NCBI GenBank assembly: GCA_021234155.1
Contig: JAJEKV010000054.1
Location: forward strand, 9,258,655 to 9,322,654
Source of the DNA: Isoetes taiwanensis
Lineage: Eukaryota; Streptophyta; Lycopodiopsida; Isoetales; Isoetaceae
DNA length: 64,000 bases
Direction of reading: 5' to 3'
This document shows positions 7,600 through 31,735 of the stretch, piece after piece. Numbering within the stretch: position 1 is the first letter of the stretch; each line of letters begins with the position of its first letter. Both the position numbers and the translations under genes were made by a program. The notes below the pieces were generated by a model that worked only from the letters and a program-made list of their open reading frames with translations, did no database searches and was not told the origin of the DNA.

Positions 7600-10500
7600 C
7601 TAGTTTTATATTGCACAATATTAATCAGTGTAAATAACATGGTATTGGAGGAGGGGGAGGAGGAGGACGACGACGATGACTTTAACGTCCATTGGAAACC
7701 AGGCATATCTCACCATTATTAGTCTATAGGTACACTTGATTTATGGTCATTTCAACTGATACCATTTCATCAACCTTTTCATTTCTAAAAGAATTCATCA
7801 AATGCTCAAACTCAACCTCAATGTTTGAATGAGCTAACTTGGTATTGATATTTATATTCCTCTTTTCAATTCGATTTAATACTTCTTCTCCAATATCCCT
7901 AACTCAAGTAATTTGTTGTTGTAAGCATTCTCATTATACGGGAATTAACTCATTAGGAAGTCTTTATACACAACTTGCTACTAAGAGTAGATTAGACCTT
8001 TTAGCCGGCTTCCAGATATATGTCAATTTTGCATTCTTCATTATGATAAGCCTTGGAGGTTTAAGGGTTCAAAGGCTTTTTCAAATTGCTAAAATTAACC
8101 GTTTTATCTAAGTTTTGGAGATGCATCCATATTGGGTTCTCTATCGTAGGTTTAAAAAGGCTACTATTCCAATATGTTATATCACTCACGCGCCAATTAT
8201 GCAAGGATTAACATTTTAATAGTTGACAAGTTAAATCTTTCTCAATTGAATAGTTTTTTGTGTCTAGAAATCAAGGGTATTCAAAAGAATGGGTAATCCG
8301 CAATCTTTCCATCTTATAGGCTCCATAATTGCAACACATCCTCATTACATCCACTTCATATAATGAATGTTGGGTGAGAGACCAATAACTATTCTAAAAT
8401 GCTTGGTCACGACTAATACAAGTATTTTATAAGTTCTTACCACCCCAACATTCTTGCCTTTGTAATACAAATTTAAAATTGTATGCCTAGCAACAACTAA
8501 AATTATGTTTGACATGCATACTAGAAAATGTACAAAAAGTACACATTCATTGTTGCATATCTATCCAATTTATTGCCTACATGTAGCTATGAGATAGAAG
8601 AACGATATCATCTGCATAGACAAATTTGAACCACCATATCCTTTTCGTTAGAGTCAGATTGATTTTTTAAAATCCAGATAGAAAGAACATCATTGCCAAA
8701 TACTGGCATGAAGGTGCTAGTGATAGAAACCAACCTTGCCTATAGAATAGAATAGAATAGAAGTATCTTTGCTTCTCTATGTTGTATCAAAGAAAGAAGT
8801 CTAGCTAGATATGAAAATGTTATATCATTAAAGGGATATGTAAGTTTTATTCATCTTTGTAAATGCATCTTATTTGTAAAGTTTGTTTCATATGCTTAAA
8901 AAAAGAGACATCTTATAACCGTGAATAGTGCTAGGTTATCTTTTTAAGGATAATCTTGGAATAATTACAAACTTGAGGGGTATATTTGGAATTCTCCTTA
9001 ACAATATCTTAAGTTTTATTTATTCTTCGTGGAACATGTCTCATCCCGGTGACTTTGTTCAATCTACCATGAGAACAAGACATTTTTGGGTTGCCCCTAG
9101 GGGGGCAAACCCTTGTTTATGTGGGTTTATGGCATATCTTAGGTATATACTAGAATATACCTAGGATATGTCGGTGACTGCTAAAAACCTACTCTTCTTC
9201 TCAGTAAATTGGCACACCGTGCATTGTGGGCGTGATGTTCGAACCGGATGGCGGCAATACAATGAGCATCGGCTATGGATACTCTCATTAGCATGCGCAG
9301 TTTTGCGACCACCATGTCCTCTCGGTTTCACCTCTTGTCGGTAACTCTTTTACGCCTTCTTCTCTAATCTAGTAAGCCTTGATTTCTTCGCCTCCATTTG
9401 TTGAATAAATTTTACAAGTGTTTGTTTTTGTTTTAGTTGATTGAAACTGTTGGTGCGCCATTGAAGGAGTTCGCGATCACCCATTAGGATCTATAAAAAA
9501 ATTGATCCCATTTTTATATTGCAAATTTTCATTGAGTGATGCGGATTACGTCTTGAGGGCCATGTTGAGTTTACAAAGCCTTGAGGTTGAATATAAAGGT
9601 TTGAGTTATTGTATTTTTCCGGGCTTTGATTTCTTAGAGTAAGGATGGGTTTTGTCATTTCAGAAGAATCATGGCTCGGTTCTATGCTCAACTTATGCAA
9701 AACCCATGTTTGATGGCTATTTCTTTATCTAATATTTGATTACGTAAAACTTGTTTATTCTCTTAATCCATGTCCCCACATGCAAATCTTTGCTTGCATT
9801 TGATCCATCGAGCTATGCCCACCAGAGATAAGATAAAAGCAGAAAAATGATCACAAAAAGCGTGCTCTTGAGGCCAAAGATTTGAAGTAGGATGCACAAA
9901 TATTTTGCTGGCAGTTAAAGGATTTAACAGGGATCAATCATGGCACATCGGGCCACAAAGAGACTCTGAGAATGTACAAAGCACAAAGACAAATCTTGAA
10001 AGAGATTTTGGCACAAGCCTACTTGCATTATCTTACGTAGATGGGTCTTTAATAGTTGCCAAAAGCAAGGCTACAACAAGCTCCAAAGCTGTGATAAGAG
10101 CTGAATGTTATGGATTAAGGGATGTAGCAAAAGCAAAGCGGTTGTAAAACACGAATGAGGCATGCATGGCTTTGAGAGGCGGAATTTGTGCGGCTTTACA
10201 TTTTCTTTTGCGTCTCCATCCATTCACTTATAGTTTTTAGTACTGGTGAGCACATTAGCATAGGATTGCATGAACATTATCTATGTGTTTCATGCACTTA
10301 TAATGCATGTTCACGCCATCTTCTTTATCTTTGCCTACAAAAGCAAGCCTTAAATTTAAAAGGGAACATGCCCAATTTGTTAGCAACCCCGCATGCTTAA
10401 CGAGAAAGGAAAAGAGATATGCTTTAACATCGACATATTACTATGGCTAAATTTTGTTTGTGCAACTAATTGATGCCATGTATTGGTGAAGAAGTTGCTT

Positions 10501-13500: not shown

Positions 13501-13820
13501 GCGGCAAAGGCTCCAGAAAGGAAGCTCAAGAGGGCCTTAGAAGTTGTGCATATTTCGAGGGTATTTGTATTTGTCTTGAGTAATCTTATTACAGAGTTGC
13601 TTTGTTCACTTGTCCAGAAACTTTGTGCAGATTGAGGTGATTAAAAAATGTAGCATCTTGGCAATAGTTGGACAGCGAATAGCCAGCCAGCACACCTGGT
13701 GTAAGTGCAACCTTGTGATGCACTGGCAAAGGTAATCCGTGGTGCTTGATTCAGATGTATTTGCTAGATGTGTGTGTAAGTAATCTGATCTTCTTTAGAT
13801 GTGTCTTGCAGGCAAATGTT
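7600..13820. other. CACTA interior, left half: no supportable gene
   Basis: I see no transposase and no complete host gene. Short frames exist at 7839-8111, 8928-9164, 9905-10147 and 10708-10890, but none carries a motif I recognise. The 9905-10147 frame is hydrophilic and could be a captured exon. Small features are a TAGAA microsatellite near 8743-8762, a GAGGAGGA/GACGAC triplet run at 7650-7680, and a short GCAAGCAATGRATTGCTACA duplication near 12490-12545. Confidence 0.4.
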
Positions 13821-13827
13821 AATGTCA

Positions 13828-14077
13828 GAGCTATAGCTCAAGATTGCTACGTGTATAATAGTCACGATGGTCATAAATAGAGAGCGCCCTGTGAAAGCAT
13901 GTGTTCAGCTTTGTGCAGGGCCCATCATACACATGTATCAGTCACTTGGTTTGAGCTATAGCTCAAGGTTGCTCTGTGTATAACAGTACGATGGTCATTA
14001 ATAGAGAGCGCTCTGTGAAAGCATGTGTTCGACTTTGTGCAAGCTCATCATATGCATGTATCGATCACCACTGGTTT
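13828..14077. repeat. 125-bp tandem duplication inside the CACTA
   Basis: Two units, 13828-13952 and 13953-14077, both begin GAGCTATAGCTCAA and share GAGAGCGC, TGTGAAAGCATGTGTTC and a CATGTATC tail. They differ by scattered substitutions and small indels, so the duplication is not recent. Confidence 0.85.
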
Positions 14078-14900
14078 GTCTTATTAAATGCTATGTATTG
14101 AATACCATTAAATGCTATATAATGACATTCGGATGTCTTTGCTGAGTTGTAATATTGTATATAGATCGTTTGGGATGTCCTTCATATGGGATTGGCGTTC
14201 ACAAGTGTTAGAAGTGCATCCGGATAATTAGGCATGAAGTTGGCCAAGTTGTTGACGCTACAAAAGAGCTTTGGAAAGCTAACACTTTACAATGTTGTTT
14301 TTATGGCATTTCTACACTAGGGCATTTGCTCTCGAAATGTAATGGGACTTTTTCATTATTGTTCCATGAACACATGATGTAACACTGGAAGTTGGTGGAC
14401 CGTCTTGCACATACAGTTAGTTCTTCTTCTCCAGTGAAATTGACACCTTGCATTGTTAGGAACGATCTGATATCGTGGTTATGCCATATAAGCTTGCATT
14501 TTAACACCTATAGCTTAAAATATTATGAGTACTGGCACGTGTTGTGATTGTGTCTGCAAGACATAAAACAAGTACAGATATTTCTACAACATTAAACTAC
14601 TCAGTTGCATACACAATTCAATCGAGGGGCACATGCGGACGGGCTTGTACATGAATGTAGGGGACCTACAAACTGATTGTAAGAACATGGTAGAGCTCTA
14701 CTTTAATTTAAATATAAATTGTGAAAACATGACTTCACGTTTTGATTTAGGCCACTTCACCCTCAAGAAACTGGAGGGCAACCCTCCGTGCGCAGCACCT
14801 TGTTTATAAAGAGGTAGGCGTATATGCCTAAACGATGAAGTATGTTTATGGAAAAAGTGAAATTAGCTACCTTTGGTAGCAAGATAGCTTATTTATGGAA

Positions 14901-15666
14901 AGGGAAATTTACCAAAATAACCTTAATTGTTCACTTAATTCCCCAAAAGCCCTTGGTATTTTTGAAATTCTCAAAATGCTCTTAATTCTTAAGTATTTTC
15001 CCAAATAGCCCTTTGTTTTTAAAAAAGCACGTTTTTACTATAGACTATTATTTTTTAAAAGGGAAGTGTTTCTCATACATGACAATAATTTGAAAAATAA
15101 ATTTCAGAACATCTCATTATGACAAAAATATACAACGGAAATGTCAAATAGGATTTCTGCAACCTAGATGGGGATAAAGCTTTAAACATTTGTCGCCCAA
15201 AAAGAAATAGAACAACTACATGACCACAAGAAAATTCTAACATTTGCCACTCCAAGCACAAACATCTTTTAGACTCAATATTAACCACAACTGATCGCAC
15301 GGGACTTTCTGCTTCAAAGTGCATCAGAAGGAAGTACTAAGTACCTTCTAGCTCGTTCAGTGACGTTTGTAACGTGTCGTTGAGCATCTTTCACTAGAGC
15401 GTTGCAGCTTCTCCACAAGATGCGCACAAAGCTTCTCCTTCGACACGATTCTTGCAAAGGCGTTGAGCTAGTTGTCTTCGAATATTTCCTACCATTGGAA
15501 TGACATGCTTATATACCGTAAAGAATGATCATCTATGGTGTAAAAACATGTTTTTTAATGATTTTTAAAATACAAAGGGTTATTTGGGCATTTTGAGAAT
15601 TTTAAAAATACTAAGGGCTTTTTGGGAATTAAGCTAACAATTAAGGTTATTTTGGTAAATTTCCCT
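14901..15666. mobile_element. MULE-like DNA transposon with long terminal inverted repeats
   Basis: The ends form inverted repeats about 150 bp long. The left end begins AGGGAAATTTACC at 14901 and the right end is its complement ending at 15666; the arms match closely apart from one indel of about 20 bp. A 7-bp direct repeat, TATGGAA, flanks both ends and is a probable target duplication (MULEs usually make 8-11 bp, so one or two bases may have drifted). Between the arms the minus strand encodes a SWIM-type zinc-finger segment (see 15073-15324). At 766 bp it cannot encode a full transposase. Confidence 0.8.
15073..15324 (-). pseudogene. SWIM zinc-finger fragment of a MURA/FAR1-type protein
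   Basis: This 83-aa frame contains VVNIESKRCLCLEWQMLEFS followed by CGHVVV. The CxC...CxH pattern matches the SWIM zinc finger at the C-terminal end of Mutator transposases and the FAR1/FHY3 family derived from them. Nothing else of a transposase (no DDE core) remains in the 766-bp element, so it is a relic. Its position inside long inverted repeats favours the transposase origin over a captured host FAR1-related gene. Confidence 0.6.
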
Positions 15667-15944
15667 TATGGAAAATAAATCTCCATTTACCCAGTAGCTT
15701 ACCGTGATAACAAATCAAAGTTGCCTGTACGTTCCTTATCTTCGTGTATGTATTATAAAGTTTTAGCATGTGCGTGCCTCCAACCAAAGTGATCCAACAG
15801 TTATTTGATGCCACAATCTGACGGCCAAGATTTCACGCTAGGCTTAAGGTTTAGGTTCGCTGTAGTTTTAGATGCGTGCAGTGTAGATAATAGGTGTGTG
15901 CTTATGTATGGTATACAAGTTTCTAAGCAAAGCACAACAACGTA

Positions 15945-16130
15945 AAAATAGAAAATGGCAAAGAAAAGGGAAAATGAGCTAATGAAAAAGGGAAATGGGG
16001 GAAATGAGATACTAAAAAAGGAAAAATGGGAAAATGGAAAAGGTAAAAGGAAAAAATAAAAAAGGAAAAGTAGGGAAGGATAAATGATAGTATGGAAAAA
16101 GGAAGGGAAGGGGGAAAGGGGAAAGGTGGT
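15945..16130 (+). repeat. Purine-rich low-complexity tract
   Basis: About 185 bp of almost pure purine on the plus strand, built from variants of GGGAAAATG and GGAAAAAG. The proline/phenylalanine-rich minus-strand frame across it is a by-product of composition. Confidence 0.75.
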
Positions 16131-16374
16131 CGTATGGTCTTCATTGTGTAACTTTGTAAATGTGAATTAATTTAACAATCGCTCCAGCGTATCATTTACA
16201 ACTCTTAACTTATGCCCAACAACACTGGATACTGTTTCTAGTTAAGTATACGGCTGATAATGCTGGCAATTTGCTTTTATGTATATATGATAAATGTTAC
16301 CTTCAAATTACTGTTTTATATAAGAAAAAAGAGGTTCCAGGTTTCACAGAGCAGCACCACTAAGTTCCTTGCCA

Positions 16375-16540
16375 GAACCTTTTGCATCCCCTATTTTTCT
16401 TGAAGCTTTTTTCGAAGCTTTTCTGAAGCTTTCTACATCTTCTATTTTCCTTGAAGCTTTTTTAGAGCTTCTGGAAGCATCCCCTGTTTTTCTCAAATCT
16501 CTCTGCATCCCTATTTTTGTTGAAGCTTTCTCAAGGTCCC
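16375..16540 (+). repeat. TTGAAGCTTTT-type short repeats
   Basis: Imperfect repeats of CCCTATTTTTCTTGAAGCTTTT and shorter pieces containing GAAGCTTT recur about six times. This is degenerate low-complexity sequence, and the frame at 16369-16602 is a consequence of it. Confidence 0.6.
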
Positions 16541-16885
16541 AAACACAAAACTCAGTAAAAGACGACGATATTTTGGACGGAATACTGCGCCATCTGGATT
16601 AGGAATGAATGGAAGCCTTTTTATCCTCTATTTTTCTCAATATGCAGGTATCAATCTTCCATTGAAGCAGTTGCTCTGGAACAGATGATCCATCATGTCA
16701 CTGTCGTCCACAATAAGTAATCAGTGCTCCATATTATGGAAAACAGACCTACTGCCGAACATGTACAAGTTATGCAACAGATCTCCAGATCCTGACAGAC
16801 CCATCGTATAAGGGAATGGCCCGTTGGGCTTGATTCCAGTGCAGTCAAACCAGCCACCGCGGATTCCATTAATGTGAAGTTTCGT

Positions 16886-17092
16886 TAGGCTGCATTCAAC
16901 CGTAGATTGCTGCCACGTGGACGGAAGAGATCCTATTTTCGCAGAATGGCGAGTAGTGGGCGAACAAATTTCAGAATGTAGAGTAAGAAAGCTGGAATGT
17001 AGACCAGCAAGCACCGCATGTGAAATCAACAAAAAGAAAAATATACACATCTCAATGTGGCATTCGCAGATAAGGCTGAATGCAGCCTAACA
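16886..17092. repeat. Inverted repeat, possible small MITE
   Basis: GTTAGGCTGCATTCA at 16886-16900 is matched exactly in inverted orientation at 17078-17092, with partial matching for a further 10 bases inward. A 15-bp perfect inverted repeat at about 200 bp spacing is unlikely by chance. No clear target duplication was found, so the transposon assignment is tentative. Confidence 0.5.
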
Positions 17093-17552
17093 GTACTTTG
17101 CGGAAGAAGAAATCATCTCATTTATAATCTGAAGGTAAAATTCATTACATTTATGAATGCACAGAGGTCAAAATTCTGTCACCAAAAATGTCTTGGTGGT
17201 GCCTCTAGACTTGGCGATGCAACGTCTTTGCCACCTAAGCATTGCGTCTTTGGCGGCGTCGCTTTGACAATTTTTTGTGGCGGAATTTTCTCCCTCCTGT
17301 GCATTATCTAATACCTAGTCTAGAAATGGATGGAAATTTTAAAAAATAATAATATTAGAACTATTTTACATAAAAATTGCATAACCCAGATAACATTAGA
17401 CAATTTTTTTTTTCATGTAATGATGATAACCTACGCAACTTAATTTTTCGCCATCAACGACAAAAATCATTTATTCATTTGCCCTTCTTTCTCCTTGGCC
17501 GTTTTCATTCCCTGTTGCCCTTCTTTCTCCTTGGCCGTTTTCTTCCCTGTTG

Positions 17553-18391
17553 CAGGCAGATATGGCTTTGGCATTGGCAACATGGCAGTAAGGGACGATA
17601 TGGCAAAGAGCCGAATTGATGCGGTTTTGTTACTTTAGGTCAAGAAGCGCTGTGGCCAATGTCAAGAGATATGCATATCATGTCCAGCACAAGCAATCCT
17701 CAAGGCTATCGCTTCAGATCTGCAAGGTATTCCTTCGTTTCCAGAAATTTTCAATCATTTGTAAAAATTTCTGCTCAAAATTTTCTACACCTTTCGTTTT
17801 CTTTAAGTTTCTGTAGGAAGTTCTAGAATCACAATGCTTATTATCGTTATTAAGAAAGAAGAAGAACTGTAAACTTGCATGTCTTTATGTTCTTTGTTCT
17901 TTGTCCTTTGTTCTTGCGTCAGAAAGTTTTGTTTGATTAGTGACTGCTTTAGCTGATTTCTACAACATTTCCAGGCAGATATGGCTTTGGCATTCGTAAC
18001 ATGGCAGTGAGGGACGTTTTGGCAAAGAGCCGAATTGCTGCAATTTTGTTATTTTAGGTCAAGAAGCACCATGGCCAATGTCAAGAGATATGCATGTCAT
18101 GTCCGGCACAAGCAATCCTCAAGACTATCGCTTCAGATCTGCAAGCTATTCCTTCTTTTTCTTCTAGAAATTTTCAATCGTTTGTAAAAATTTCTGCTCA
18201 GAGTTTTCTACATCTTTAGTTTTCTTTATGTTTGTGTAGGAAGTTCTAGACTCATAATGTTTATTATCATTATTACGAAAGAAGAAGAACTGGCAACTTG
18301 CATGTCTTTATGTTCTTTGTCCTTTGTTCTTGCATCAGAAAGTTTTGTTTGATTCGTGACTACTTTAGCGGATTTCTACAACATTTTCAGA
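17553..18391. repeat. About 419-bp tandem duplication inside the CACTA
   Basis: Unit A (17553-17971) and unit B (17972-18391) both begin with CAGGCAGATATGGCTTTGGC and include GGTCAAGAAGC, GGCCAATGTCAAGAGATATG and CTTCAGATCTGCAAG. They differ by several percent with small indels. No open frame is shared by both units. Confidence 0.85.
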
Positions 18392-18453
18392 TATCTGCCA
18401 TTGTCGATGCATGGAGGTATGGACTTTCAAAACATTTCCAGCATTTCTTGTTT

Positions 18454-18606
18454 GATGTCATATGATCTGCGCTGCATTTGAGGCCTTAATTGAGCTTTGA
18501 GTTTGGTTCCACTAAATAGTCTTTTCTTTTTTCTTGGATGTCATATGATCTGCGCTGCATTTGAGGCCTTAATTGAGCTTTGAGTTTGGTTCCACTAAAT
18601 AGTCTA
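18454..18606. repeat. 83-bp tandem duplication plus TCTAT microsatellite
   Basis: GATGTCATATGATCTGCGCT begins both 18454 and 18537, and the two units are nearly identical up to ACTAAATAGTCT. A short run of TCTAT repeats follows at about 18602-18630. Confidence 0.85.
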
Positions 18607-18639
18607 TTCTATTCTATTCTATTCTATTTTTTCTTTGAA

Positions 18640-19829
18640 GCTGCTTACCTGATCCACAATTGTGATTTTAGCATGCTTTTGTTGCTTGTCTCATTTTGCA
18701 GACAGTCTCGATTCTACTTGAGAGTTCTATGTTTTTGTCATTTTTTTGCATTTGCACTGCATTACATTGACTTCTTAGATGCTATCTTTTTTGTGTAAGG
18801 AGCAATTTTGTGGCTTATTTGCGAGAGAAGCACAAAACAGTTATCTAGTGAGCATTTCAAAAAAAATTCTATTTCTAGGGACAGGATTACATATTTAGAA
18901 AAGGTTCTGGTTATTTATTGCAACTGTTTTCTCAAGGGTTGTAAAGAAATAAAGTGATTCTGATCAATGGCATTTGTGTAAGCATATGCATGTAAGCAGC
19001 AGTCTAATCAGAGCTACGTGCCTATTTCAGATTTTTTGGGTATACACTAGATTCCAGTTTCAAGATTTCTCCCATGTAAGTTCCTTTTGCAGTTTTTCTA
19101 CAATTTCACAAATTTGATGCAAGAATCAATATTGCAGTTGTAAAGTGGAAATAGAGCAGGGTCTATTCGCTGGTCATATCATGGATTTTATTTGCAGTTG
19201 CAGAAAACATTGCAAAGTGCATAATCTTGCACCGGGGCCCAATTTTGCTTTACAAATTTGTTTGCAGTCCCTCTAGTAAAATAATACAATGTGTTATGCT
19301 ACTCAAAAATAATAAGGGTAAGGTCATTTTGTCTCTGGGGAAAATGGAATACTACCCTGGGCTCTTTGAACTTAATAAACCAATCATGAATGTTTTACAC
19401 ACATATGTTGCTTAAATAAAACAACATTTGGTGTTTTGATATAAAAGCTTGCATTAGTACGGTGGATAGACTTGCATATATATATTATGCGTTTTTGTTT
19501 TAAACCAATGATTGGATGTCCAATGAGCCTTTCTTCGTTTGTTATAGAAACCAATGATAGCTACTAAATGTTTGATGGAGAAACCCACAATAATTATGCA
19601 CTCGGAGTGGCAATGATTTTCAAGTTGCGTACGCCTTACTAATAGTAATACATTGTCTAAAGCACTCTTGATTTATCCCAATACAAAGATGCAAGCCCTT
19701 ACTATTTTGTTAGCTAAATTGTTACCATTTAGCCTATAACATTTTTATAGAAACGTGGCATATTACGTGCATGGAAGAACATTGATTCCTAAGAAAAAAT
19801 ATAGGCAACTTATTTTGAAAACCACACTA
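18640..19829. other. CACTA interior, right part: no gene seen
   Basis: AT-rich non-coding DNA. The longest frames (18580-18798 and 19227-19415) have no recognisable motif. The right subterminal repeat region begins near 19830. Confidence 0.4.
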
Positions 19830-20115
19830 AATTGCACATTCAATGAAAACAAATTTCGCTAATGGTTTATGATTCATATCATTAACTATACCACATATCT
19901 AAGACACACTAAACCACATATCTAAAACACAGTAATAAAACGCTATTATCAACCAAACAAACAAACTACCATAAAGAACCATGAAGGTAAATAGTGGTAA
20001 CAAACTAGAATAATAAACCATAAATAAGCACCACACTATGTAACTAGCAATGGTTATTCAACATATTAACCCACTTAGTGATATCACTTTATTTTAGTGG
20101 TTTCATGTAAAAACT
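19830..20115. repeat. CACTA right subterminal repeats
   Basis: At least eight copies of AAACCAC, ACCACA, TGGTTT or TGGTTA lie in both orientations, mirroring the left subterminal cluster at 7365-7560. Together with the 17-bp inverted repeats they define the transposon's ends. Confidence 0.7.
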
Positions 20116-20135
20116 GTTGTGAAAAACTAGTAATG

Positions 20136-20357
20136 GGTCTAATGGTGGAACAATTCGAGTTTAGTGGAGAAAGCAATCTGAGTAACTGACCAGATAGGGT
20201 CTCTCTACCATTATGTTGTTGTGGAATAGGACTTCCCTTAGTACGCACATCATGATGCATAGAGAACCCATTTAATAGCCCTAATGCTTCCTATTTGTCC
20301 CATTGGGGACTCTCTGTATCTTTATTATTATTATTAATAACAAAAAACACACTCTTA

Positions 20358-20391
<34 letters not shown>
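20136..20391 (+). mobile_element. 5'-truncated LINE insertion (3' tail with poly-A)
   Basis: A plus-oriented insert of about 256 bp ends in TTTATTATTATTATTAATAA, then ACCCTC and a run of about 30 A. It is flanked by a 14-bp target duplication, AAAAACTAGTAATG, at 20122-20135 and about 20392-20405. A long target duplication, a poly-A tail and a missing 5' part are typical of LINE retrotransposition; a SINE sharing a LINE tail is possible. It sits only about 22 bp inside the right end of the CACTA. Confidence 0.85.
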
Positions 20392-20398
<7 letters not shown>

Positions 20399-20430
20399 AG
20401 TAATGATTCTTTTTTGGGGGCCTTGTGTGG

Positions 20431-23400
20431 TAAGTGCTTCCACTTAACCAAGTATTGCAACATTTGAGTCCTTCTGGTTTGTTTATATGCTCGATCAAGA
20501 AGAGCTTCAGGCACTATCTCCAGCTGCTCCTCTGTCATTTCGAGGAGGGTAGGGGTATCCAAAACCTCCTCTGGATCAGGGGTGTGTTGTTTCAGAAGAC
20601 TTACGTGAAAGACCTTGTGGATCTTCAAGCGGGCGGCAGATCCAAGCGATATGCCTGCTCTCCAACACGCTCAATAATTTTGAATGGTCCAGCCCATCTG
20701 GGTGCCAACTTCTTGCAGTTGCCAATCTTAAGCTTGGCTTGTTTCACCTTAATCTTAAGCCAAACTGATTCGCCTACCTGAAAAACGCGTGGGGTTCTGT
20801 GCTTATCGGCTTCCTCTTCTGACGACTGCGTGCAGCTAATAAGTAGCCACAAACTTTTTGAGAAACCTCCACTTTAGAAACAGGGTTATGCCATGTGTCT
20901 GGAGTAAGACATTGATAACCATAATTTATCATAAAGGGAGACATTCTGGAAGACTCCTGTTTCATGCTGTTGTAGGCAAACTCGACCAGATAAATATAGT
21001 CAGCCCATTGTGATTGCTTACTCCACACATAACTTCTTAGCATATCCTCTATAATGCGATTGGTATGCTCTGTCTGACCATCTATTTGAGGATGATATGC
21101 CGTACTCATAGCAAGCTTGGTCTGGATGGTGGCAAAGAAATCCTTCCAGAATGCACTTACGAATTTGGGATCCCTGTCGGATATAATAACTCGTGGCATT
21201 CCGTGTAATCTGAAGATCTCTTTGGCAAATAGCAGAGCAGTATCGAAGGCGGTATCCGTGGTACGACATGGCAAGAAATGAGCCATTTTCGACAATTTGT
21301 CGACCACTACCATTAACGCGTCATATCCACGGAGAGTACGTGGAAGGCCCACTATGAAATCCATGGTTATCACTTCCCATTTAGCGTTGGGCACATCCAG
21401 AGGTTGCAACTCGCCTGGAATCCTTAACTGCTCAGCTTTGGTTTGCTGACATACCTGACACTGCTTAATGTATCTGGCAATATCCTTTTTCATAGAAGGC
21501 CAGAAATAACTGGAGCGAATCTTAAAGTAGGTCTTCATAAAACCTGCGTGTCCAGCTATAGGGCTGTTGTGTGTGTCGTGGAGGATTAGCTTACGCACTC
21601 CCGAAGTCTCAGGCACACACAGCTTATCTTTGTAATATAACAAGTGGCCCTCTTTCTTATATGCACCAAAGACTTCCCGCTCCTTATCCGTGCGAGCTTC
21701 CTTAGCCAAACTATCCCAAACCTCACAGAACTCAGGATCCGTGGCCAAGGTCTGCTCTATCTGTTTCCCAAATTCACTGGTGAGTGTAGAAATTGCATTA
21801 GAATGGGTTCGGGTTACCAAGGGATGGCGTGACAACGCATCCGCAACCACATTGTGCTTGCCAGGCTTGTATATAATCTCAAAATCATATTCCTCCAGAA
21901 ATTCCATCCATCTTCTCTGACGGAGATTGAGATTTGGCTGGGTGGATAAATAACAGAGACTTTGATGGTCCGTATCCAACTGGAATCTTCTACCAAGAAG
22001 GTAGTGTCTCTATATCCGCAGGGCACGGACAACGGCTAGCAATTCATGATCATGGGTAGGGTATCGCTTCTCTGTCTCGTTCATTTTCTTTGAATCATAG
22101 GCAATAACCCTCCCCTCCTGCATTAGGACTCCACCGGTGGCAATCTTACTGGCATCCGTTGCTACTAGTTTATCCTTTTCCGGATCGGGCAATGTGAGAA
22201 CTGGTGCTGACGTTAAGGCATTTTTAAGCTGCTGGAAACTCCCCTGAACTTTTGCCTTCCAATGTTCCATCCAATCCTTCACTTTCTCATGCTTTGTAAG
22301 GTTTGTAAGAGGTGCTGCAATCTTTGCAAAATCCTTTACAAATTTCCGATAATATCCTGCTAATCCCAAGAAACTTCGGACCTCGGAAACATTTCCTGGA
22401 ATAGGCCATTCCCTTACGGCCTGTATTTTTGCTGGATCTGTAGCAATTCCCTCTGCCGAAATGACATGGCCCAAATAATCGACCTTCGGAGTGGCAAACT
22501 TGCATTTAGAGAACTTGGCAAAGAGCTGATGGCGTCTGAGCTTTTCTAGGGCCAATCGAAGATGTTTCTCATGCTCCTGCAGGGTCTTACTATAGATGAG
22601 AATGTCGTCAAAGAAAATAACAACAAAGTCATCCAAGTATTGTCGGAAGACATCATTCATTAACCGCATAAACGTTGCGGGGGCATTAGTTAATCCAAAA
22701 GGCATAACGGTAAACTCATAATGCCCATATCTAGTGCGAAAGGCAGATTTATGAATGTCCTCCTCCTTAATCCTTATTTGATGATATCCGGAGCGTAAAT
22801 CAATTTTTGAGAAAAACTTGGCTCCTTGCAATTGGTCCATTAGATCATCTGCTCTTGGCAAAGCATAGCGATTCTTGATGGTATGCTTGTTGAGTTGCCG
22901 ATAATCAATACACATCCTCAAGGAGCCATCCTTTTTCTTAACAAAAAGAATAGGAGCGCCAAAAGGCGAAACACTAGGACGAATGAAACCTAGGTTTAGT
23001 AACTCCTGAAGTTGCTTCTTAAGCTCTGCCAACTCTGGAGGACTCATACGGTACGGGGCCTTGCTGGTAGGCTTAGTACCTGGCTCTAAAGCTATCTCAC
23101 ATTCTACCCCTCTAAAAGGAGGAAGCTTCTGGATCTCATCCGGAAAAAGATCACCAAATTCTCGGAGAAGATTAGCAATCCCCTCTGGCAGGGTGTCGAT
23201 TACCTGCTTCTGCTTAGCATCTGACTCAATGGAGGCAAGTCTAATGACGCAAAGGAGCTTTTCCTTGCGTATAGCTTTATCTAACTGCCTGATGGGCATA
23301 GACTGCATAATAGGGTTGAATGGTTCACCTTTAATAGTTACGCCCATTAGCTGCGTTGAAGGTAACTTCCCGTTTCTCGCAGTCTATGTTGGCCTTTGCA

Positions 23401-25214
23401 GATGCCAAGAATTCCATACCGACAATAAGGTCGTATTTGCCAATATCCATCAACTCGGTACCCAAAGCAACTGGTGCACCTGGCAGCTGCATCTTGAGAT
23501 TGATGCGACGGCCATGAGTATGTCTAACTTTACCACTGGCTAGAGTGACATGCCTCGGTCGGGACCTCAATGTTTCAAGCTGTAAGACTTGGGCCATTCT
23601 AGGAGAAGCAAAATTATGTGTACTTCCCGTATCCATAAGAATTATAAAAGGCTTACTGTCTACTTGACCTATGGTGGAAATGACAGCAGGCTGACTTTCA
23701 GCATTGCCGGTTTCTATAGCTGCAAGGATATGAGACGCACCGTGAATGTACTCGGGAGCCTCCTCCTCGACAGGTTGTGTTGACTCGAGATCGTCCCAAT
23801 CGAGGTCGGCCATGGCCAGCTGGGCAGTCTGCGTGACATAAGGACAATTCTGCATGAAGTGTCCGGGCCGCATACACCTGTAGCATGCCTTATCTCGGCG
23901 GAGCTGTTCTCGGGCCTCTTTAGGAATAGACTGTAAGAGGTTCCGAACTTCCTTACCGACATTGTTCTGTTTATCGGCCGTGCTGAAGGTGACTTTCTTT
24001 TCCTGGCGGCCATAAGAGTTCTGCTGAGAGGGCCCCGGACTTGGCGAGCGGGGTTTGTAAGGTGTGGACGGCCGTGGCTGCGAGTAAGGAGCAGGACGCG
24101 GATACTGGTTCCTTGGTGTGTCCTCCTCGAGGCTCAATGCCTTAGCCTCAGCCTCCGCAACTGATTTCGGATCTATGGCCTTAACCATTCGTTTAATTGA
24201 TGGGGCCAACCCTTCAATGTAGCCTTCCACTGCCCTCTTTTCATTCATACCTGGTACATACAGCCTCAGGCGCATAAATTCATCAGTGTAGGCCTGGACT
24301 GACATACCCTTCTGCTCTAACCTGTAGAAGGTCTGAATTTGTTGGCATTTGTGCGCACGAGGCACATAATGCGACTTAAAAGCTTTTGCAAACTTTTTGA
24401 ACTTGCACCTGCTTCTATCCAGATGCTTGGCTCTAGCATAGCCCTTCCACCAAATACGGGCAGCTCCTGTAAGGTTTGTGGTAGCAACCTTTCCTGTATC
24501 CTTTTCTGTCATGCCATAGGACTTCCCAAACTCCTTCATTTCGTCCAACCAGGACTCTGCATTCAGTCCGCCTCTAGATTTCCCATCAAACTGGGCCAGT
24601 TTCCTATTCTTCCATATACTAGTTATGGCTGTATCAACCGTCTTGCGGTATTCCTTATCCCGGCGCTTTGCATGGTCACCAGCTGATACGGACGACTCAG
24701 AAGATACAGAAGTGGCTGATTGTGAGGAGGTGGTGCTATCCCTAGAGGAACTGCGACGACGTTTAGAACGGGACCTCCTTTGTGCAGGTACAGGGCTGGT
24801 TTCAGGTGGAGATGGCTGCTGTGCAGGCGGACTTGGCGGTTGCGAAGGTAACTCCAGTCCGTTTTCTGGTGTATGCTGTAGTGGGTTGGAATGCAACACA
24901 TAAGCCTGTAACTCGTCTAATTGTCTTTTCATTAACATCAGTTCCTGTTCAGGTGTTAGCCTACTGGCATTCGAGGGCGTCTGCCAGACGGCGTTGCGTG
25001 CACCGTCTATATCGAGCATACATGAAAGTATAAGCAGAATTATAGTAACATAAAGTCTCACAGAAATATCATTTTGGATAGGGTAGAGAGAGATTACAAG
25101 AAAAAGTACGATGGCAAAGATTCTTATTACAAGTGAAAACTGCCATTCCATTAAAATTCCGTAGATTGATGGTAAACACAAGTTGATACAAAGATACAAT
25201 ACAAGGACAAACAT
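20431..25214 (-). pseudogene. Chromovirus gag-protease-RT-RNaseH-integrase-chromodomain region
   Basis: Minus-strand order of domains: gag capsid region (about 24250-24700, with ARIWWKGYAR and YVPRAHK), a CCHC knuckle CYRCMRPGHFMQNC (about 23880), an aspartic protease with DTGSTHNF (about 23620), reverse transcriptase with the FFDD form of the active site and [13 protein letters not shown] (about 22550-23050), RNase H (about 21850-22200), integrase with an HHCC finger, core aspartates (TMDFIVGLP, IISDRDPKF) and YHPQIDGQTE (about 20950-21600), and the first part of a chromodomain with YLVKWKHLP (about 20430-20560). RT before integrase plus a chromodomain identifies a Ty3 chromovirus. Products would form the particle and carry out reverse transcription and integration. 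As a fossil it is nearly whole but has a few breaks and is interrupted by the CACTA. Confidence 0.92.
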
Positions 25215-25282: not shown

Positions 25283-25771
25283 CTAGGGGTTCGCAAATGG
25301 GTAGAGGATTGAGTAGCGAACACTTTTACGTACAGCCCTAACGAGCTTGTAACGTGCCCAGGCCTGAACGATAACAGGTTGGTAATCCAGCGTTGGGCTA
25401 ATAATAAGGAGATTGAAAAGCCTCCTTAAAGCATAGAAGATTTGCCACAGGTGGTCGTTGGCATCCTCGAAAGCTTCGTGCCTGGACATATCCCAATAGT
25501 CCCATGTGCGGCGAAGAGTTTGCTTTAGGTCCTCGTAGGCTCGTTCCCTGAGAATGCTAACTATCTCCATCCCCTTGGCTGGATCATAGGACTCCCCTGG
25601 TGGTGCAGGTTCTATCTCATAACCTTCGTCCCATTCCGGGTACTCCCCATATCTTTGGCCATAATCCTGTTCTGGCGGCCCTGGATCATCTCTCCTTATC
25701 AGATCGGTAATCCTCTCCTCATATTCTTCGAGTGTTTCTTCTGCAAGACGATAAAAATGAATATAGAACAT
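25283..25771 (-). CDS. Element-encoded ORF3, unrecognised
   Basis: A 162-aa frame lies between ORF2 and gag of the chromovirus. The first part is strongly acidic and rich in Tyr, Pro and Glu (RDDPGPPEQDYGQRYGEYPE); the second part is predicted helical with aromatic residues (LWQIFYALRRLFNLLIISP). No known domain is recognised. The bases just before the AEETLEEYEE segment form a pyrimidine-rich run ending TCTTGCAG, which resembles a plant 3' splice site, so this may be an exon joined to an upstream ORF rather than an independent gene; splicing is known in some large plant Ty3 families such as Ogre. That reading is an inference. Confidence 0.55.
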   Translation of the reverse strand: MFYIHFYRLAEETLEEYEERITDLIRRDDPGPPEQDYGQRYGEYPEWDEGYEIEPAPPGESYDPAKGMEIVSILRERAYEDLKQTLRRTWDYWDMSRHEAFEDANDHLWQIFYALRRLFNLLIISPTLDYQPVIVQAWARYKLVRAVRKSVRYSILYPFANP

Positions 25772-25964: not shown

Positions 25965-27365
25965 TTAAGAGCTAGGTCCTCCCCCTTCATTCGTAGACCG
26001 AGGAGGTGGTGGCGGCGGTCGGTGTCGTAGCAGAGTCGCCCCGGGGTCTACTGTGGCAGCCGCAATGGAAGCAACCTCTGGCGGATAAGCAACAGCCAAT
26101 GGGGCTGCCGTAAGGAGCTTCATGCTCATCCAGGGTGCAATGTCTTGTCCCAAGGCCGTTAGGGCAAGATCCCGTCGTACGAGTACATAAGTGAACGTAC
26201 GATAGGGAAGCTTCTTGTGCCCGGCCAATGTGGAGAGAGCACGGAGGGTCCACCATGAAGCTTCAGCCTCCGGCCCTAAATCTCGGGCTATAAAAAGAAC
26301 TTGCCCCTGTCGAAAAGCTGATAAGAAGAAGCGGGTAAGGTGGTTTCCCAATACCTTCCCTTGCGGGGTCTCTGACGTGGCCACCTCCTTGTCTAAGTCC
26401 ATAGGGACTTCTTCTTCCTTGAGTTCTTGCTGCTCTTCCTTCAGATGAGCAGGATTATGGTATAGATCCTCTCCTTTCTCATCCGAATCGGAGGGAACCT
26501 CAACCATATTAATGTTGGGAACATGAGGTCCCATAGCTGTAAAGGCATCCGGTGAGGGCTGAGAGGCTGGATCCTGCATCACCAGTTCCCGAAGCCGTAG
26601 CAAAGTCTCAGCTGGCTCTATGGTGTCCTGTCGGAACTGGAGTAATTGCTGCACCTCCGGGGGAAGCTCAATAGGAGCGAAGTCGATGAAATCATCTATA
26701 CAGTAATCCGCTAGCTCATAGAGCACATGGTCCTTACGCCGGCGCTTAAACCCGGCCACCATGTGATAGGTCCAGATGATATCATCCAAGAGAAGATATT
26801 CTTGCCCTTGGTGATACACAACTGGAAGGGCGTCCAGCCCTGACAAGCGTGCAACTTGTTCCCGGCATGGTGGCATCTCCTCTGCTAACTGCTTCCAACG
26901 GGCGAAGTCGCCCATACCTATATGCTCATCTTCTCCCTCCTCGGAAGATTCAGGGAGTTTGCCTTTCTCTACAGGCAAAGTTTCATCCTCAACGTATTGA
27001 TCCATGAGGATGGCTAGGGCGAAGGCAACCTCAAGATATTGTCGCCCCTGATGCTGCACAACGGGCAGGTGTTTGCCCCATCTGAGCTTTCCTTTCAGCA
27101 CATCATACGCATGGGTGTCGCCCCCTAACATATCCCGGACTACCTCCCGTTCTAGATACAATTGGGGAGGATCCCCAAGAGGGATACACAAAGGAAGCAT
27201 CTCCTCCATGTAAAAGTCTAAAAACCCGGCATAATCTGGGTGCCGCTGCATATTAGTGATGAGGTCTAGGCGTTGGCATAGCAAGGGCCGCAACAGGTCG
27301 AAGGGCACTTGCGGATCCCAATGCTCTCCGTCTTGATACCATGCAAGAAGGTCGGTGGCTGCCAT
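25965..27365 (-). CDS. Element-encoded ORF2, unrecognised 466-aa protein with internal repeat
   Basis: An uninterrupted 466-aa frame, MAATDLLAWYQDG to a proline-rich C-terminus (PPPPPP), lies 200 bp downstream of the histone-H3 ORF on the element's coding strand. I recognise no domain. There is a clear internal repeat: LPVVQHQGRQYL at residues 100-111 and LPVVYHQGQEYL at 180-191, each followed by a hydrophobic helix. Acidic low-complexity segments lie near residues 139-148 and 295-330, and a basic patch (FKRRRK) near 206. The open frame in an element whose gag-pol region is broken suggests recent constraint or chance survival. The role is unknown; position before gag recalls the extra ORF1 of Tat/Ogre-type elements, but I see no sequence resemblance. 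Confidence 0.75.
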   Translation of the reverse strand: MAATDLLAWYQDGEHWDPQVPFDLLRPLLCQRLDLITNMQRHPDYAGFLDFYMEEMLPLCIPLGDPPQLYLEREVVRDMLGGDTHAYDVLKGKLRWGKHLPVVQHQGRQYLEVAFALAILMDQYVEDETLPVEKGKLPESSEEGEDEHIGMGDFARWKQLAEEMPPCREQVARLSGLDALPVVYHQGQEYLLLDDIIWTYHMVAGFKRRRKDHVLYELADYCIDDFIDFAPIELPPEVQQLLQFRQDTIEPAETLLRLRELVMQDPASQPSPDAFTAMGPHVPNINMVEVPSDSDEKGEDLYHNPAHLKEEQQELKEEEVPMDLDKEVATSETPQGKVLGNHLTRFFLSAFRQGQVLFIARDLGPEAEASWWTLRALSTLAGHKKLPYRTFTYVLVRRDLALTALGQDIAPWMSMKLLTAAPLAVAYPPEVASIAAATVDPGATLLRHRPPPPPPRSTNEGGGPSS

Positions 27366-27566: not shown

Positions 27567-28769
27567 CTAAGGATGCTCCCCCCGAATCCTGCGGGCGAGG
27601 GCTAAATCCTTAGGCATGATGGTGACCCTCTTTGCGTGGATTGCGCAAAGATTGGCATCACCAAAAAGTGCCACTAGATAGGCCTCCGCAGCCTCTTGGA
27701 GTGCCAAAATGGCAAAAGTCTGGAAGCGGAGGTCGGTCTTGAACTCCTGGGCAATCTCCCGAACCAACCTCTGAAAGGGAAGCTTCCGTATCAGAAGTTG
27801 GGTTGACTTCTGAAACTTACGGATCTCCCGTAAGGCGACAGTGCCCGGTCGGTACCGATGGGGTTTCCTCTGTGGAGCAGGGTTAGGAGGCGGCCCCCTT
27901 TGTGCAGGCACAGTCTTGGCCCCAACATGGGGTCGGGACGCATCCACCCGCTCCTGCCTCCGACTGGAGCTCGCGTTCTTGCCAAAAGCGCTGACAGTCC
28001 TTAACTTTTCCTTGTATTGACTGCCGGACTTCCGGGCGACGGCCTTCCTCCGGTGCTTCACCGTCGTATGCTCTGTTGGGGTTGGGCCCTGCCCACTCCC
28101 AGATGCCCCTTCCCCCTGTGGGTTCGGCTGGTCTTGCCGAGCCTTCTCCTCCTTCTCCCGTTGGATCCTCTCCTGCTCTTCCCGGAACTCCTGGGCTCTC
28201 CTAAGGTCTTCTTCAACCTGAGCGTAATGTTGTGCTACGCTGCGGGGAAGAAGTTCAGCGTGGTACCGGTTGGGCCGCTGACTCATATCGATCTGGATGG
28301 TTATTAAATAATCAATGCTGATATCAGGGATCTGCCCCCATATGAAGCTGCGGGAATCCTCATCCCATCGGTATGGGGGAATCTCGATGGCCCTGCCATC
28401 TATAACGGCAACGCCATCCCCCAGGTACCGATATTCCCTACCCCGAGCCGCCGTATCAGCTCGTTCTATCTCTCGGCGATCATCCTCCCTGGCCAAGTTT
28501 CTGATGCGGTCGGCCTCATCCCTTATGTCCTCCTCCTCGGTGTGTCCTTCACATTCGGGAGGGTAGAACTTAATCAGCATCATGACCAAGTCAGGTTGCT
28601 CGGCCATGGTGTAAGGAAGCTGGCGGAGGTTCAGTCGGATCAAGATTACTAGCTCGTCTAGGAGTATGTCAATCAAAGCAGGGTCGGTAGCCATATTCCG
28701 AGCGATCAAAGCGTAGATCTGGGCTATAGTAAGGTTAGTGGGGTCCGGAGCACTCTTAGTGTTGGCCAT
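27567..28769 (-). CDS. Element-encoded ORF1: N-terminal extension fused to a histone H3 domain
   Basis: A 400-aa uninterrupted frame, the first after the leader of the chromovirus. Residues 1-230 are unrecognised, with a helical start, an acidic region (80-105) and a charged coiled-coil-like stretch (185-212). Residues 235-300 are basic and Pro/Ser-rich, like a histone tail, with one ARKS. Residues 302-399 are unmistakably histone H3: [20 protein letters not shown], then [51 protein letters not shown] and ARRIRGE. The spacing equals canonical H3 with no loop-1 insertion, unlike many CENH3s. H3-equivalent positions 113 (His) and 123 (Asp), used in the H3-H3' contact, are kept. Position 41 is Phe as in plant H3.1, and 90 is Leu as in H3.3. 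Changes from canonical H3 include Gln at 50, Phe at 87, Ala at 102, Gly at 105, and a HP end. Confidence 0.9.
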
Positions 28770-29536
28770 GGCTTATGGCGCTAAGGTCTAGAAGAATAGG
28801 CGGTAGGGCGCTTGCGGCTAGGGAAGCGGCAGTGAGGGCGCTAGGGTTAGCGAGGAACTAGGGCGAAGAAGCAAGGTCGGATCTGGTGGCCATGGCGGGC
28901 GGCGGTTCCGGCAGGTGGAGGCGCTGAAGGCAAGGCGGAGGTAATATCTGTAACGGCCGGCTAACTTTTTAAATTTTAAAATTTTTCTTATTAACTTTTT
29001 ATTTCTTTATTAAAAAGATATTTATACGGCAGAAATACGCGGGGACATACGGTCGGGCGCCGACTGCATTCTACGCGCTCCCACCGCAACTGGGGGTCGA
29101 CGAAAAGCAAGCGGCGCCCGGGTTGACTTTCGGGCCCGTGTTGACTCGCGACGGTACGGTCGGGCGCCGACTGCATTTTTGGGTCTCCCACCTCGACTGC
29201 AAGGCGACAAAAATCAAGCGGCGCCCGAGTTGACTTTTGGGCCTTCCCTTGACCATTTTTCCGCAGCGACGACTGTCCTAGGGTATTTGGGGTACGCCCG
29301 ATCCAGTGGAACCACTTTCTCCTTCATTTAAACTACCTACAAAAAATTTATAACCCCTCCAAACTTGGGGCCTCTAGTAGCCCTAACTTCTTTAAACCTA
29401 CAATTTCTTACTTTAACCTAACACAAAGCCAAGCATCAAAGAGGACTAAGCAACACACTAGATTAGCCTCCTCCTAACTAACGAACTACGAGTTAGGGTT
29501 TGGCCAGTGCTATGATTTCGAGCAACCGAAATCACG
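28770..29536 (-). other. Chromovirus leader between primer-binding site and ORF1
   Basis: Non-coding leader of about 770 bp in minus-strand sense. It contains the GC-rich duplication at 29049-29262 and an AT-rich spacer near 28960-29030. No recognised gene. The far end near 28780-28920 is rich in GGCGCTAGGG-like G/C segments directly upstream of the ORF1 start codon. Confidence 0.7.
29049..29262 (-). repeat. 107-bp GC-rich tandem repeat in the chromovirus leader
   Basis: Units at 29049-29155 and 29156-29262 share ACGGTCGGGCGCCGACTGCA, AAGCGGCGCCCG and GTTGACTTT. They are imperfect copies, strongly GC-rich against the AT-rich surroundings. Each contains the self-complementary cores GGCGCC and GTCGGGCGCCGAC, so stem-loop formation in the leader RNA is plausible. 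Confidence 0.85.
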
Positions 29537-29548
29537 GCTCTGATACCA
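29537..29548 (-). other. Primer-binding site (initiator Met-tRNA type)
   Basis: On the minus strand TGGTATCAGAGC begins one base after the end of the 5' LTR. This is the classic plant primer-binding site complementary to the 3' end of initiator methionine tRNA, used to prime minus-strand DNA synthesis. Confidence 0.95.
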
Positions 29549-29549
29549 A

Positions 29550-31156
29550 TGTGACGCTCCCTGAATATATACGACCCCCGGCCATATACATACGGGGACT
29601 TTCCCCTCCCATGGCGACCATCTCGCCATGAGCAGGGCCCTCCGTCTGACCCGGGCCATCTACGTAGAGATGCTCGAGTGAAGGGCACGGAGGTGTCATT
29701 CGGCCCACGCCTTCGATGGGCTCCTACGTCGCGGAAGCATGAGTACAAGGGTTAGCACACAGCATAAATCAAATATATATAAATATCCTCCACGAAGGGT
29801 GGCGCGTCCATCCAAATATCAACGGCAAAGAATGTGCATCTAAACTAAGAAAACACCCCAAACCTCAGGTTCTACCCCGGCTCAGACTCCAGTGAGGATC
29901 GACTGACGGCTGGGCCTCGAGAGATCAGGAGACCGAGTCTTGGAATGGCGTTGGCTGGCATAGAACATCGACTAGGGTTGTCCACTCCATCCGCCCCTCC
30001 TGTGCACACTTTGCAGATGGGTCGATTCACGCTATGGCTTCGCTATAGCCTTCCGGATACGCAGACTCAAGGTATCACCCTTTATGAGTCTACTCCAGGG
30101 TTCATGACGCCCCAGTCCGATGAGGCAGGTCAGGGAAGCGTCCCCTTCCAGGATCACAGTGGTTCCATGGGTGAGCTAAAGAATATGTGCCGCATCAGCG
30201 ACCCCCGCATCTGTACCCAACTTACTCACCCTAAATCTACTCAAAGTGCAAGATGCTCCATACGGATCACATCTCTACACCCAGGGAGTGTCAGACCCAT
30301 ACCCGGCCCTCTACGTGACCGGCTATCAGGCCTAGCCCACTGTAGGAGTCTCAGGAGCCTTTTATGTTCGTGCAAGACCCCACCCCCACTTCACCACTGT
30401 GTCCCTTTTCTGGTGCTAAGCCAGACCATAGCGTCTACAACCCGTTGGTCTCTTGCACACAGGCCGCATCTAATGGGAATATTACAGGGCTCTATCTAGG
30501 AGCATACTATCATACATGAGCTCAGAGATCTCTACCCCCCCTTTAAGTCCCTGTTTAATGGAAGCTACCGAAATACTTCATAGATACATCAACCAATTCC
30601 TTAACAGAGCACCATTCATAATTGAAATGTAATCCTACTTACCAGAGAAGGATTAATCTCAACAAAAGCGATCAGCAAAGAGAGTACTGAAGTACTATCC
30701 TACAATTCACAAGCTAATCTACTACTAACCCGTGTTTCGGCTGGAACCGTTATCATGGGGTGCTTCCATGGTGCTGTAGGTAGGGCGGCAACAACAGCTA
30801 GTGGTTGTTCAGTGATTTTGGTGAGGTCAGCAACAGTGCTTTAGGCGCTCAACTGCTCCTTGGGCGCTCAACCGGTTCGATTTTGGCTGATACGGGGGTG
30901 GTGATCCACCTAATTGGATCCAAATAGTAGTCACCATGCTGGCCAATCGAGTTTGGCCAGGTGGCGCCTTCCCAAACCATAATTGGCTTAATTATCCTTC
31001 TTAATTATTAATTTCCTTAATCATAGGTTATTATCCTTAATGGTTTAATTAACATAGCTAATTAAATCCCTTTTAGGTCAACCCCCTGGCGTATCTGTAC
31101 TGGGTGACGTGTCAATGTATTTATACATATACAATATAAATACGTGGAACGTCACA
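29550..31156 (-). repeat. 5' LTR of the chromovirus
   Basis: A 1607-bp LTR pairing with 4939-6551, with the same TGTGACG / CGTCACA termini, followed on the right by the target duplication AGGCT (31157-31161). Transcription would start within it on the minus strand. The 184-aa plus-strand frame at 29945-30499 is not supported as a gene. Confidence 0.95.
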
Positions 31157-31735
31157 AGGCTCAAAACCCACTGACTATCATCGGGTGGTCCAAAAGAGAA
31201 AAGAAAAAATGTAGAAGGTATCCATCATGATGGTGGCCTAGTGGTCAAGTCATTGGTTATGGGCAACCCCCAACCAGGCTCAAAACCCACTGACTAACAT
31301 TGGATGGTTCAAAAAAAAAAAAGGGGGTAAAGGTGTAAAAAGATATCCATCGCGCTGGTAGCTTAGTGGTCAAGCCATTGGTTATGGGCAACCTCCAGCC
31401 AGGCTCAAAACCCATTGACTACCATTGGCTGGTTCATTAAAGAAAAGACAAAAGTGTAAAAAGATATCCATCGCACTGGGTGGCCTAGTGGTTAAGCCAG
31501 TGGTTATGGGCAACCTTAAGCCGGGCTCAAAACCCACTGAATACCATTGGGTAGTTGAAAAGGAAACGAGTCGAGAAAAAGCATAGAAACGAAAGAAAAA
31601 GAATGTAAAATATAACCATCACGTTGGCTGCCTAGTGGTCAAGCCATTGGTTATGGATGATCTCCACTCAGGCTCAGGCTCAAACCCCACTGACTGCCAT
31701 CAGATGGTTACAGTAACCAAGTGAAAAGACAGTGA
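31157..31735 (+). repeat. Tandem array of tRNA-like (SINE-head) units
   Basis: After the right half of the split unit (31157-31217), four more units start near 31218, 31342, 31463 and 31611, each about 120-150 bp. Each has GATATCCATC, an A-box-like TGGCCTAGTGGTCAAG, GGTTATGGGCAACC, a B-box-like AGGCTCAAAACCCACTGAC, and an A-rich spacer (AAAGTGTAAAAA). The box spacing suits a tRNA-derived pol III promoter, but the cloverleaf is incomplete. Units differ by about 10-20%, so the array is older than the LTR insertion. Confidence 0.85.

Follow-up and report, generated by a model that had tools for sequence, protein, structure and literature searches.

The window, that is, the whole 64,000-nucleotide stretch of Isoetes taiwanensis DNA that was analysed, carries on its minus strand an LTR retrotransposon whose ORF1 (27567-28769) is open over 400 codons from ATG to stop, while the plus-strand reading of the same bases holds stops. 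ORF1 consists of an N-terminal domain (N-domain, residues 1-190; 28200-28769, minus strand) that we could assign to no family and that has related N-parts in the lineages B, C and D described below, a variable tail, and an H3 histone fold (residues 302-399; 27573-27866, minus strand), which was studied by Pfam and PDB matches, dN/dS and residue comparison. The 5' LTR (29550-31156, minus strand; 1607 bp, TGTGACG...CGTCACA) and the 3' LTR (4939-6551, minus strand; 1613 bp) were paired by blastn; both have TG...CA ends, and they diverge by a K2P distance of 0.053 over 1586 aligned sites. A perfect 5-bp target-site duplication, AGCCT, lies at 31157-31161 on the 5' side and at 4934-4938 on the other. 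The primer-binding site TTGGTATCAGAGCC... (29531-29549, minus strand) directly follows the 5' LTR and presumably fits the initiator tRNA-Met, and a polypurine tract, AAGGAGGGGAGAA (6552-6564, minus strand), read from the sequence, adjoins the 3' LTR. The LTR pair, the duplication on both sides and the primer-binding site bear out the claim of an earlier, sequence-only reading of this DNA that the frame lies between two LTRs of a bounded element. ORF1 starts 0.78 kb downstream of the 5' LTR end, and no other long frame lies between it and the primer-binding site.

Further along the minus strand, ORF1 is followed by ORF2 (25965-27365; 466 codons), also of no family known to us and placed after ORF1 in all four lineages, and by ORF3 (25283-25771; 162 codons), which begins with a splice-acceptor-like ...TTGCAG and is perhaps an upstream exon of gag. 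Next come a gag and protease frame with Pfam matches to Ty3_capsid, Retrotrans_gag and RVP_2 (23331-25214) and, by domain matches, reverse transcriptase (RT) with the start of RNase H (22010-23347), the end of RNase H with integrase (20774-21979), and the integrase C-terminus running into a chromodomain that is cut by an insertion at 20427 (20428-20628). The order gag, protease, RT, RNase H, integrase is that of Ty3/gypsy elements, and gag-pol of the window copy is split over several frames. A pyrimidine tract with (C/T)AG stands 4-5 bases before the ORF2 start in all 21 lineage-A copies compared, and a CAG is found at the ORF3 start in 18 of the 20 rows compared. From these signals we infer spliced subgenomic RNAs, and ORF3 would be a gag exon.

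The outer LTR ends span 26.2 kb, and a 26 kb element was considered and rejected, as 13.1 kb of this span (7304-20427) is a nested insertion that is not element sequence and is absent from the other copies compared. In all eight fetched copies that reach this point, position 20428 joins directly to about 7303, which gives an element of about 13 kb, and all eight copies that extend to the 3' end run into the same LTR. The chromodomain at the integrase end falls below the Pfam cut-off in the window copy, where it is cut (E 8.9e-5), and lies above it in two scanned copies free of the insertion (E 4.6e-9 in L016 and 3.1e-8 in L014), so that the name chromovirus, given to the element from its sequence alone, holds at the level of the family. 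The family is a Ty3/gypsy chromovirus, about 13 kb long, in which two additional genes precede gag.

The insertion itself begins with CACAAGGCCCCCAAAAA, ends with the inverse TTTTTTGGGGGCCTTGTG, lies between TGG triplets (7301-7303 and 20428-20430) and includes a stretch of poly-A (20363-20396); the ORFs wholly contained in it are all shorter than 110 codons. By what we take to be the hallmarks of such elements, it resembles a DNA transposon of the CACTA type. Five family copies (L027, L026, L012, L025 and L028) carry additional insertions within or between genes, seen as interruptions of their match with the window. Elsewhere in the window, direct repeats 99.8% identical (55159-55601 and 59948-60390) bound a minus-strand stretch (55159-60390) with an integrase-like frame at 57781-58824 and an RT-like frame at 56944-57594, both named by eye, which looks like a young Ty1/copia-type element. 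The segment 34800-49200 is a large tandem duplication whose units, about 4.4-5 kb long, mostly share 95-99% identity and hold many short AGATTCC-type repeats. The H3-bearing element adjoins a small array of roughly 120-bp repeats at 31199-31709, and another piece of this repeat is found beyond its opposite end, at 4871-4938.

The histone fold that had been read at residues 302-399 of the 400-codon frame was recovered by Pfam (Histone, residues 280-396, E 2.8e-41) and by H3 chains in the PDB, the best of them an H3.3 chain (E 5.7e-53). These matches and the codon-position bias given below rule out a chance open frame. A canonical H3 tail with the K4, K9 and K27 contexts was not found in ORF1; the tail is replaced, with traces such as PATGGK, the last part of the canonical tail, recognisable in lineage B. 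The lineage C ORF1 (L067, 6102, minus strand) starts with MARTKGT, near the H3 start MARTKQT, and lineage A with MANTK; the lineage C start is possibly a relic or a mimic of the H3 tail tip. CENH3 has a longer loop 1 and a strongly diverged fold; an identity with it was rejected, since the fold has no insertion and, compared by eye, is identical to a host H3 at 87 of 97 positions. For the N-domain and ORF2 no convincing match was found in Pfam or PDB (weak PDB matches at E 0.5 or more), and profile comparison, at a probability of about 0.1%, rejected ORF2 as a further histone or a duplicate of the N-domain. Structure models made from single sequences, with no alignment, reached a mean pLDDT of 42 and 35, too poor to search with. 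Among viral contigs the sole relative found was a 4 kb contig (IMGVR_UViG_3300033144_007251) with an H3-like stretch 38% identical to the fold.

The frame had also been described as undamaged. It is open, as said, and yet the window ORF1 lacks a 19-residue block that is present in full in 12 of the 13 aligned relatives covering the site, in an alignment from which L021, L022, L026, L027 and L029 were left out (L029 alone for a stop, the others dropped with no such test) and in which L025 and L028 were cut short.

The search of the window's own genome (1.658 Gb, 1110 contigs) with ORF1 gave 178 matching stretches in at least 104 scored candidates, many of them with open frames; the best of 12,317 first-look candidates were scored, so that all copy numbers are lower bounds. 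In all 20 copies fetched from the ORF1 list, ORF2 comes after ORF1, separated from it in L027 by a 5 kb interruption, and 18 of the 20 also contain ORF3 and gag. In 11 of them 4.3-4.6 kb separate RT from the H3 fold upstream of it; the others have insertions, deletions or no RT. Two further samples were picked by ORF2 and by RT so that copies were not chosen by ORF1. Among the ORF2-picked copies (at least 91 on the list), 11 of the 12 read have H3 pieces, several with frame breaks, and the twelfth, L033, keeps only the last 22 codons, beside a misplaced RT piece. For the RT sample, 20 of at least 95 RT matches were chosen down the list among those not seen beside listed ORF1 or ORF2, and short upstream stretches were read. 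Fourteen have the H3 fold in this stretch, and in a fifteenth (L056) it appeared once the reading was extended (L067). In L048 the stretch read contains the beginning of ORF1 but does not take in the H3 part. For L062 and L046 the listed H3 matches include one upstream of RT in the same orientation, at a distance of 2.3 kb and 10.6 kb, respectively. The remaining two of the 20, L053 and L057, gave no sign of H3 there, which we count against the explanation preferred below.

The earlier reading had named two findings that would speak against it, an H3 ORF in one copy only and a chance histone retrocopy absent from related elements. Neither agrees with the 178 matching stretches or with the presence of H3 upstream of RT in 15 of the 20 RT-picked copies and in four lineages, and a single histone retrocopy was rejected on the genome-wide matches, the fetched copies and the RT-picked copies alike. 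A search with canonical H3 returned, among the best 150 places scored, 15 H3 genes of full length, at 96-98% identity, and 135 further places, and all eight of the latter that were read are of the element type. H3 annotations in this genome therefore need care, as 135 of the 150 best-scored H3-like places are not ordinary H3 genes. The assembly was built with Nanopore reads (PMC8566536), so some of the frame breaks may be sequencing errors.

The copies fall into four deeply diverged lineages, A to D, in which N-domain, H3 and ORF2 stand in the same order at near-saturated synonymous divergence. Lineage A is that of the window. Lineage B comprises seven RT-picked copies, one of which (L060, read further as L066) has both ORF1 (442 codons) and ORF2 open. 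Lineage C is represented by L067, with the H3 fold in a broken ORF1, and L051 is alike in the fold. Lineage D is the locus C1014 (L079, L073, L080), where H3 stands between a frame-broken match to the N-domain and a match to ORF2; the reading there covered the ORF1-ORF2 part as distinct from gag-pol. ORF1 is one open frame in A and B, and its frames are broken in the C and D copies read. Identity to lineage A is about 26-42% in the N-part (in tblastn about 26% for B, 31% for C and, in pieces, 35-37% for D), about 50% (B, C) and 38% (D) in ORF2, and, in the H3 part, 88% for B, 91% for C and, measured over a longer stretch, 81% for D.

The synonymous differences from the window are unevenly spread along the element. 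In L067, pS is 0.23 for RT, 0.37 for gag and 0.41 for ORF3 against 0.79-0.83 for ORF1, H3 and ORF2; in L066, it is 0.40 for RT and 0.54 for gag against 0.82-0.88 for ORF1, H3, ORF2 and ORF3. This contrast indicates that the front cassettes ORF1-ORF2 are much older than the pol that carries them, and recombination has presumably put old front cassettes on a younger, shared pol.

A comparison of synonymous and non-synonymous change across copies had been suggested from the start, and in it the H3 fold shows the lowest pooled dN/dS of the element segments, 0.033 (NG86, 23 copies, 253 pairs). The other segments, mostly with fewer usable copies and pairs, gave 0.119 (ORF1 1-150), 0.199 (ORF1 tail), 0.153 (ORF2), 0.106 (ORF3), 0.132 (gag), 0.107 (RT) and 0.171 (integrase); pairs that reached 0.7 in pS or pN, segment coverage below 60% and matched pieces below 60% identity were excluded. 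The lineage A copies were mostly picked by ORF1 similarity, which biases their ORF1 dN low, and we therefore give more weight to lineage B, whose copies were all RT-picked, and to the values between lineages. In lineage B the median dN/dS of the fold is 0.048 (21 pairs of seven copies). Between A and B the fold has a pS of 0.83 and a pN of 0.10 (196 pairs). Incomplete or stop-bearing folds were dropped for this comparison and for the lineage B median, and from lineage A only folds sharing at least 88 residues with that of the window entered, which again lowers dN. Representatives of A, B, C and D differ by a pS of 0.75-0.94 and a pN of 0.055-0.111, and two host H3 genes differ from the lineage representatives by a pS of 0.82-1.05 and a pN of 0.085-0.119. 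Differences in the fold are distributed 11/7/82% over the three codon positions, and its translations are 96.5% identical in frame versus 74% out of frame. Judged by these values, the H3 fold has been kept by purifying selection since its capture; the family appears to make a histone of its own and to hold it under stronger selection than its polymerase.

For the residue comparison we used complete folds only, in 49 rows (39 of them different): 35 from lineage A, six of the seven from B, one each from C and D, three of the 15 host genes, and three references, among them the Arabidopsis and human H3 folds. At 75 of 97 fold positions the three host genes and the four lineages agree in their majority residue. 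Using lists of contact residues that we take to be the relevant ones, the element has a full H3 fold with both H3' and DNA contacts, as all nine listed H3-H3' residues and 18 of the 21 listed DNA-contact residues (the exceptions being 41, 64 and 86) are kept as majority residues in host and lineages. At the alpha-2 chaperone site (H3 87-90), where the three host genes read have SAVL or TAVL, lineage A has FAIL in 34 of its 35 rows, lineage B has FAIL in four of its seven copies with FAVL or FVIL in the others, lineage C has HAIL and lineage D has LGVL. Differences from the host were found at positions 86, 102 and 107 and in part at 105, 124 and 125, through which chaperone or tetramer contacts could be weakened.

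Positions 86 and 102 set each of the four lineages apart from the host, and T107A and I124L are majority residues common to them. E77 and L90 are common to the element and the three host genes read and are absent from the Arabidopsis and human reference folds used. The protein tree splits host and reference H3s from all element lineages with a support of 96/92; it is built on a short fold, with 25 of 36 inner branches open, a support of 61/22 for lineage A and a bootstrap that has not settled. This split, the common residues and the related N-domain fit one capture before the lineages separated. Most likely, H3 was captured once, before the A-D split; given such a tree, several independent captures are a less probable alternative.

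The gene, its fusion, the selection on the fold and the kept contacts are observed, and from them we propose how such a protein could act. Once expressed, the ORF1 protein would enter the nucleus, pair with host H4 through its little-changed H3 fold and be placed in nucleosomes by H3 chaperones, whereby the H3 tail, the substrate of silencing marks, would be swapped for the element's own tail and N-domain. Such an element-made label, borne by nucleosomes at selected sites or on newly made element DNA, could hinder H3-tail-based silencing, offer a landing site to integrase or ORF2, or both. Packaging, deposition and decoy had all been raised in the sequence-only reading as possible roles, and deposition fits the kept residues best. 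We consider a captured H3 fold, fused to the N-domain, deposited with host H4 and exchanging the tail, to be the best explanation, held with slightly more belief than doubt. It is favoured by the kept H3' and DNA-contact residues together with the alpha-2 site comparison, and the low dN/dS, the absent canonical tail and the chromodomain on integrase also count for it; against it stand the changed contact positions and the lack of a convincing Pfam or PDB match for the N-domain and ORF2, which leaves no tethering partner to name. Conservation of the fold would also fit a soluble decoy that needs to bind H4 and chaperones, that is, an ORF1 protein that titrates H3 chaperones or H3-modifying silencing enzymes with no deposition intended. 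The changes at the alpha-2 site (86-89) and at positions 102-107 agree with such a role, as does the near-canonical start of lineage C; a pure decoy would have no need of the 18 kept DNA contacts, and most of the tail recognised by modifying enzymes is missing, so we regard it as unlikely, if still worth weighing. Those same DNA contacts, the place of ORF1 as first long frame past the primer-binding site, and the marseilleviruses, which package with their own histones (PMC9145170), would suit a role in which the fusion and host H4 coat the element's cDNA or RNA in the particle or pre-integration complex, the cDNA reaching integrase as chromatin. A lone H3 has to borrow H4, H2A and H2B, however, and the element fold is near the host histone, whereas the virion-packaging marseillevirus H3-like fold has no kept alpha-2 chaperone site (PMC9145170); we find packaging quite unlikely.

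Two further accounts dispense with a function for the element. The many broken copies with often interrupted frames could be taken for a functionless captured fragment in a few related copies, a view made very improbable by dN/dS values of 0.03-0.05 in two lineages, the third-position bias, near-saturated synonymous divergence between lineages whose pN stays at or below roughly 0.1, and gene neighbours that are alike in all four lineages. That the fold matches host H3 at 87 of 97 positions could likewise suggest a host H3-variant gene family lying beside retrotransposons by chance, to which we give hardly any credence, considering the regular distance of H3 from RT in 11 of the 20 fetched copies, the presence of ORF2 after ORF1 in 20 of 20, and the common LTR met by all eight copies that reach the 3' end.

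Returning to deposition, a broader and distinctly more tentative model, in which we place less than even trust, would have the element-made H3 with its 300-residue N-domain replace host H3, which would let new copies evade silencing through the H3 tail or flag them for the chromodomain integrase, while ORF1-ORF2 cassettes of several ancient types are swapped onto one pol in an arms-race-like contest with host chromatin control. The data suggest a jumping gene that may shape chromatin with its own histone, and the family offers a direct test of whether a transposon can evade silencing or direct its integration by altering the nucleosome itself.

In the open-access literature searched, no retroelement-encoded histone was found. 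The word 'histone' does not occur in a review of plant extra ORFs (PMC7264820) or in a paper on rotifer ORF3 (PMC5408684), nor 'retrotransposon' or 'retrovirus' in a review of viral histones (PMC9145170); a Phalaenopsis study (PMC9289625) has 'histone' twice, never as an element gene. That study describes Gypsy_Pa_2799, Gypsy elements of about 25 kb with an added AlkB-like m6A demethylase ORF, and also states that chromoviruses read histone marks via the chromodomain. As in our family, a domain of host type became fixed in this plant Ty3/gypsy lineage and persisted while the lineage diversified; unlike in our family, the domain is a 2-ODD enzyme instead of a histone, and its authors liken the element to Ogre (PMC9289625). 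Grande, RIRE2, Retand and PvRetro13 also have family-wide additional ORFs whose function is not known, some of them nuclear, but these lie more often between pol and the 3' LTR, in sense or antisense (PMC7264820). LTR retrotransposons of bdelloid rotifers have likewise gained non-envelope ORFs, also common to element types, though their captured ORF3s are exonuclease-like or esterase-like (PMC5408684). Among viruses, the bracovirus CvBV-H4 is a captured histone with an extended tail that enters host nucleosomes and alters transcription, but it is an H4 on wasp-borne, virus-derived segments with another life cycle (PMC9145170). The single viral H3s of xenomavirus, DSLPV1 and Sylvanvirus resemble the element protein in being one H3 with a fold 73-87% identical to host H3, some with N-terminal extensions, and an alpha-2 site of, for example, SAIL or TAIL; they belong to DNA viruses, and the extensions named for them have 35-68 residues, whereas that of ORF1 has about 300 residues with a conserved domain. 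These viral H3s are expected by the authors of the review to assemble into nucleosomes together with histones of the host (PMC9145170). The family described here would place retroelements among the few genetic parasites with host-derived histones.
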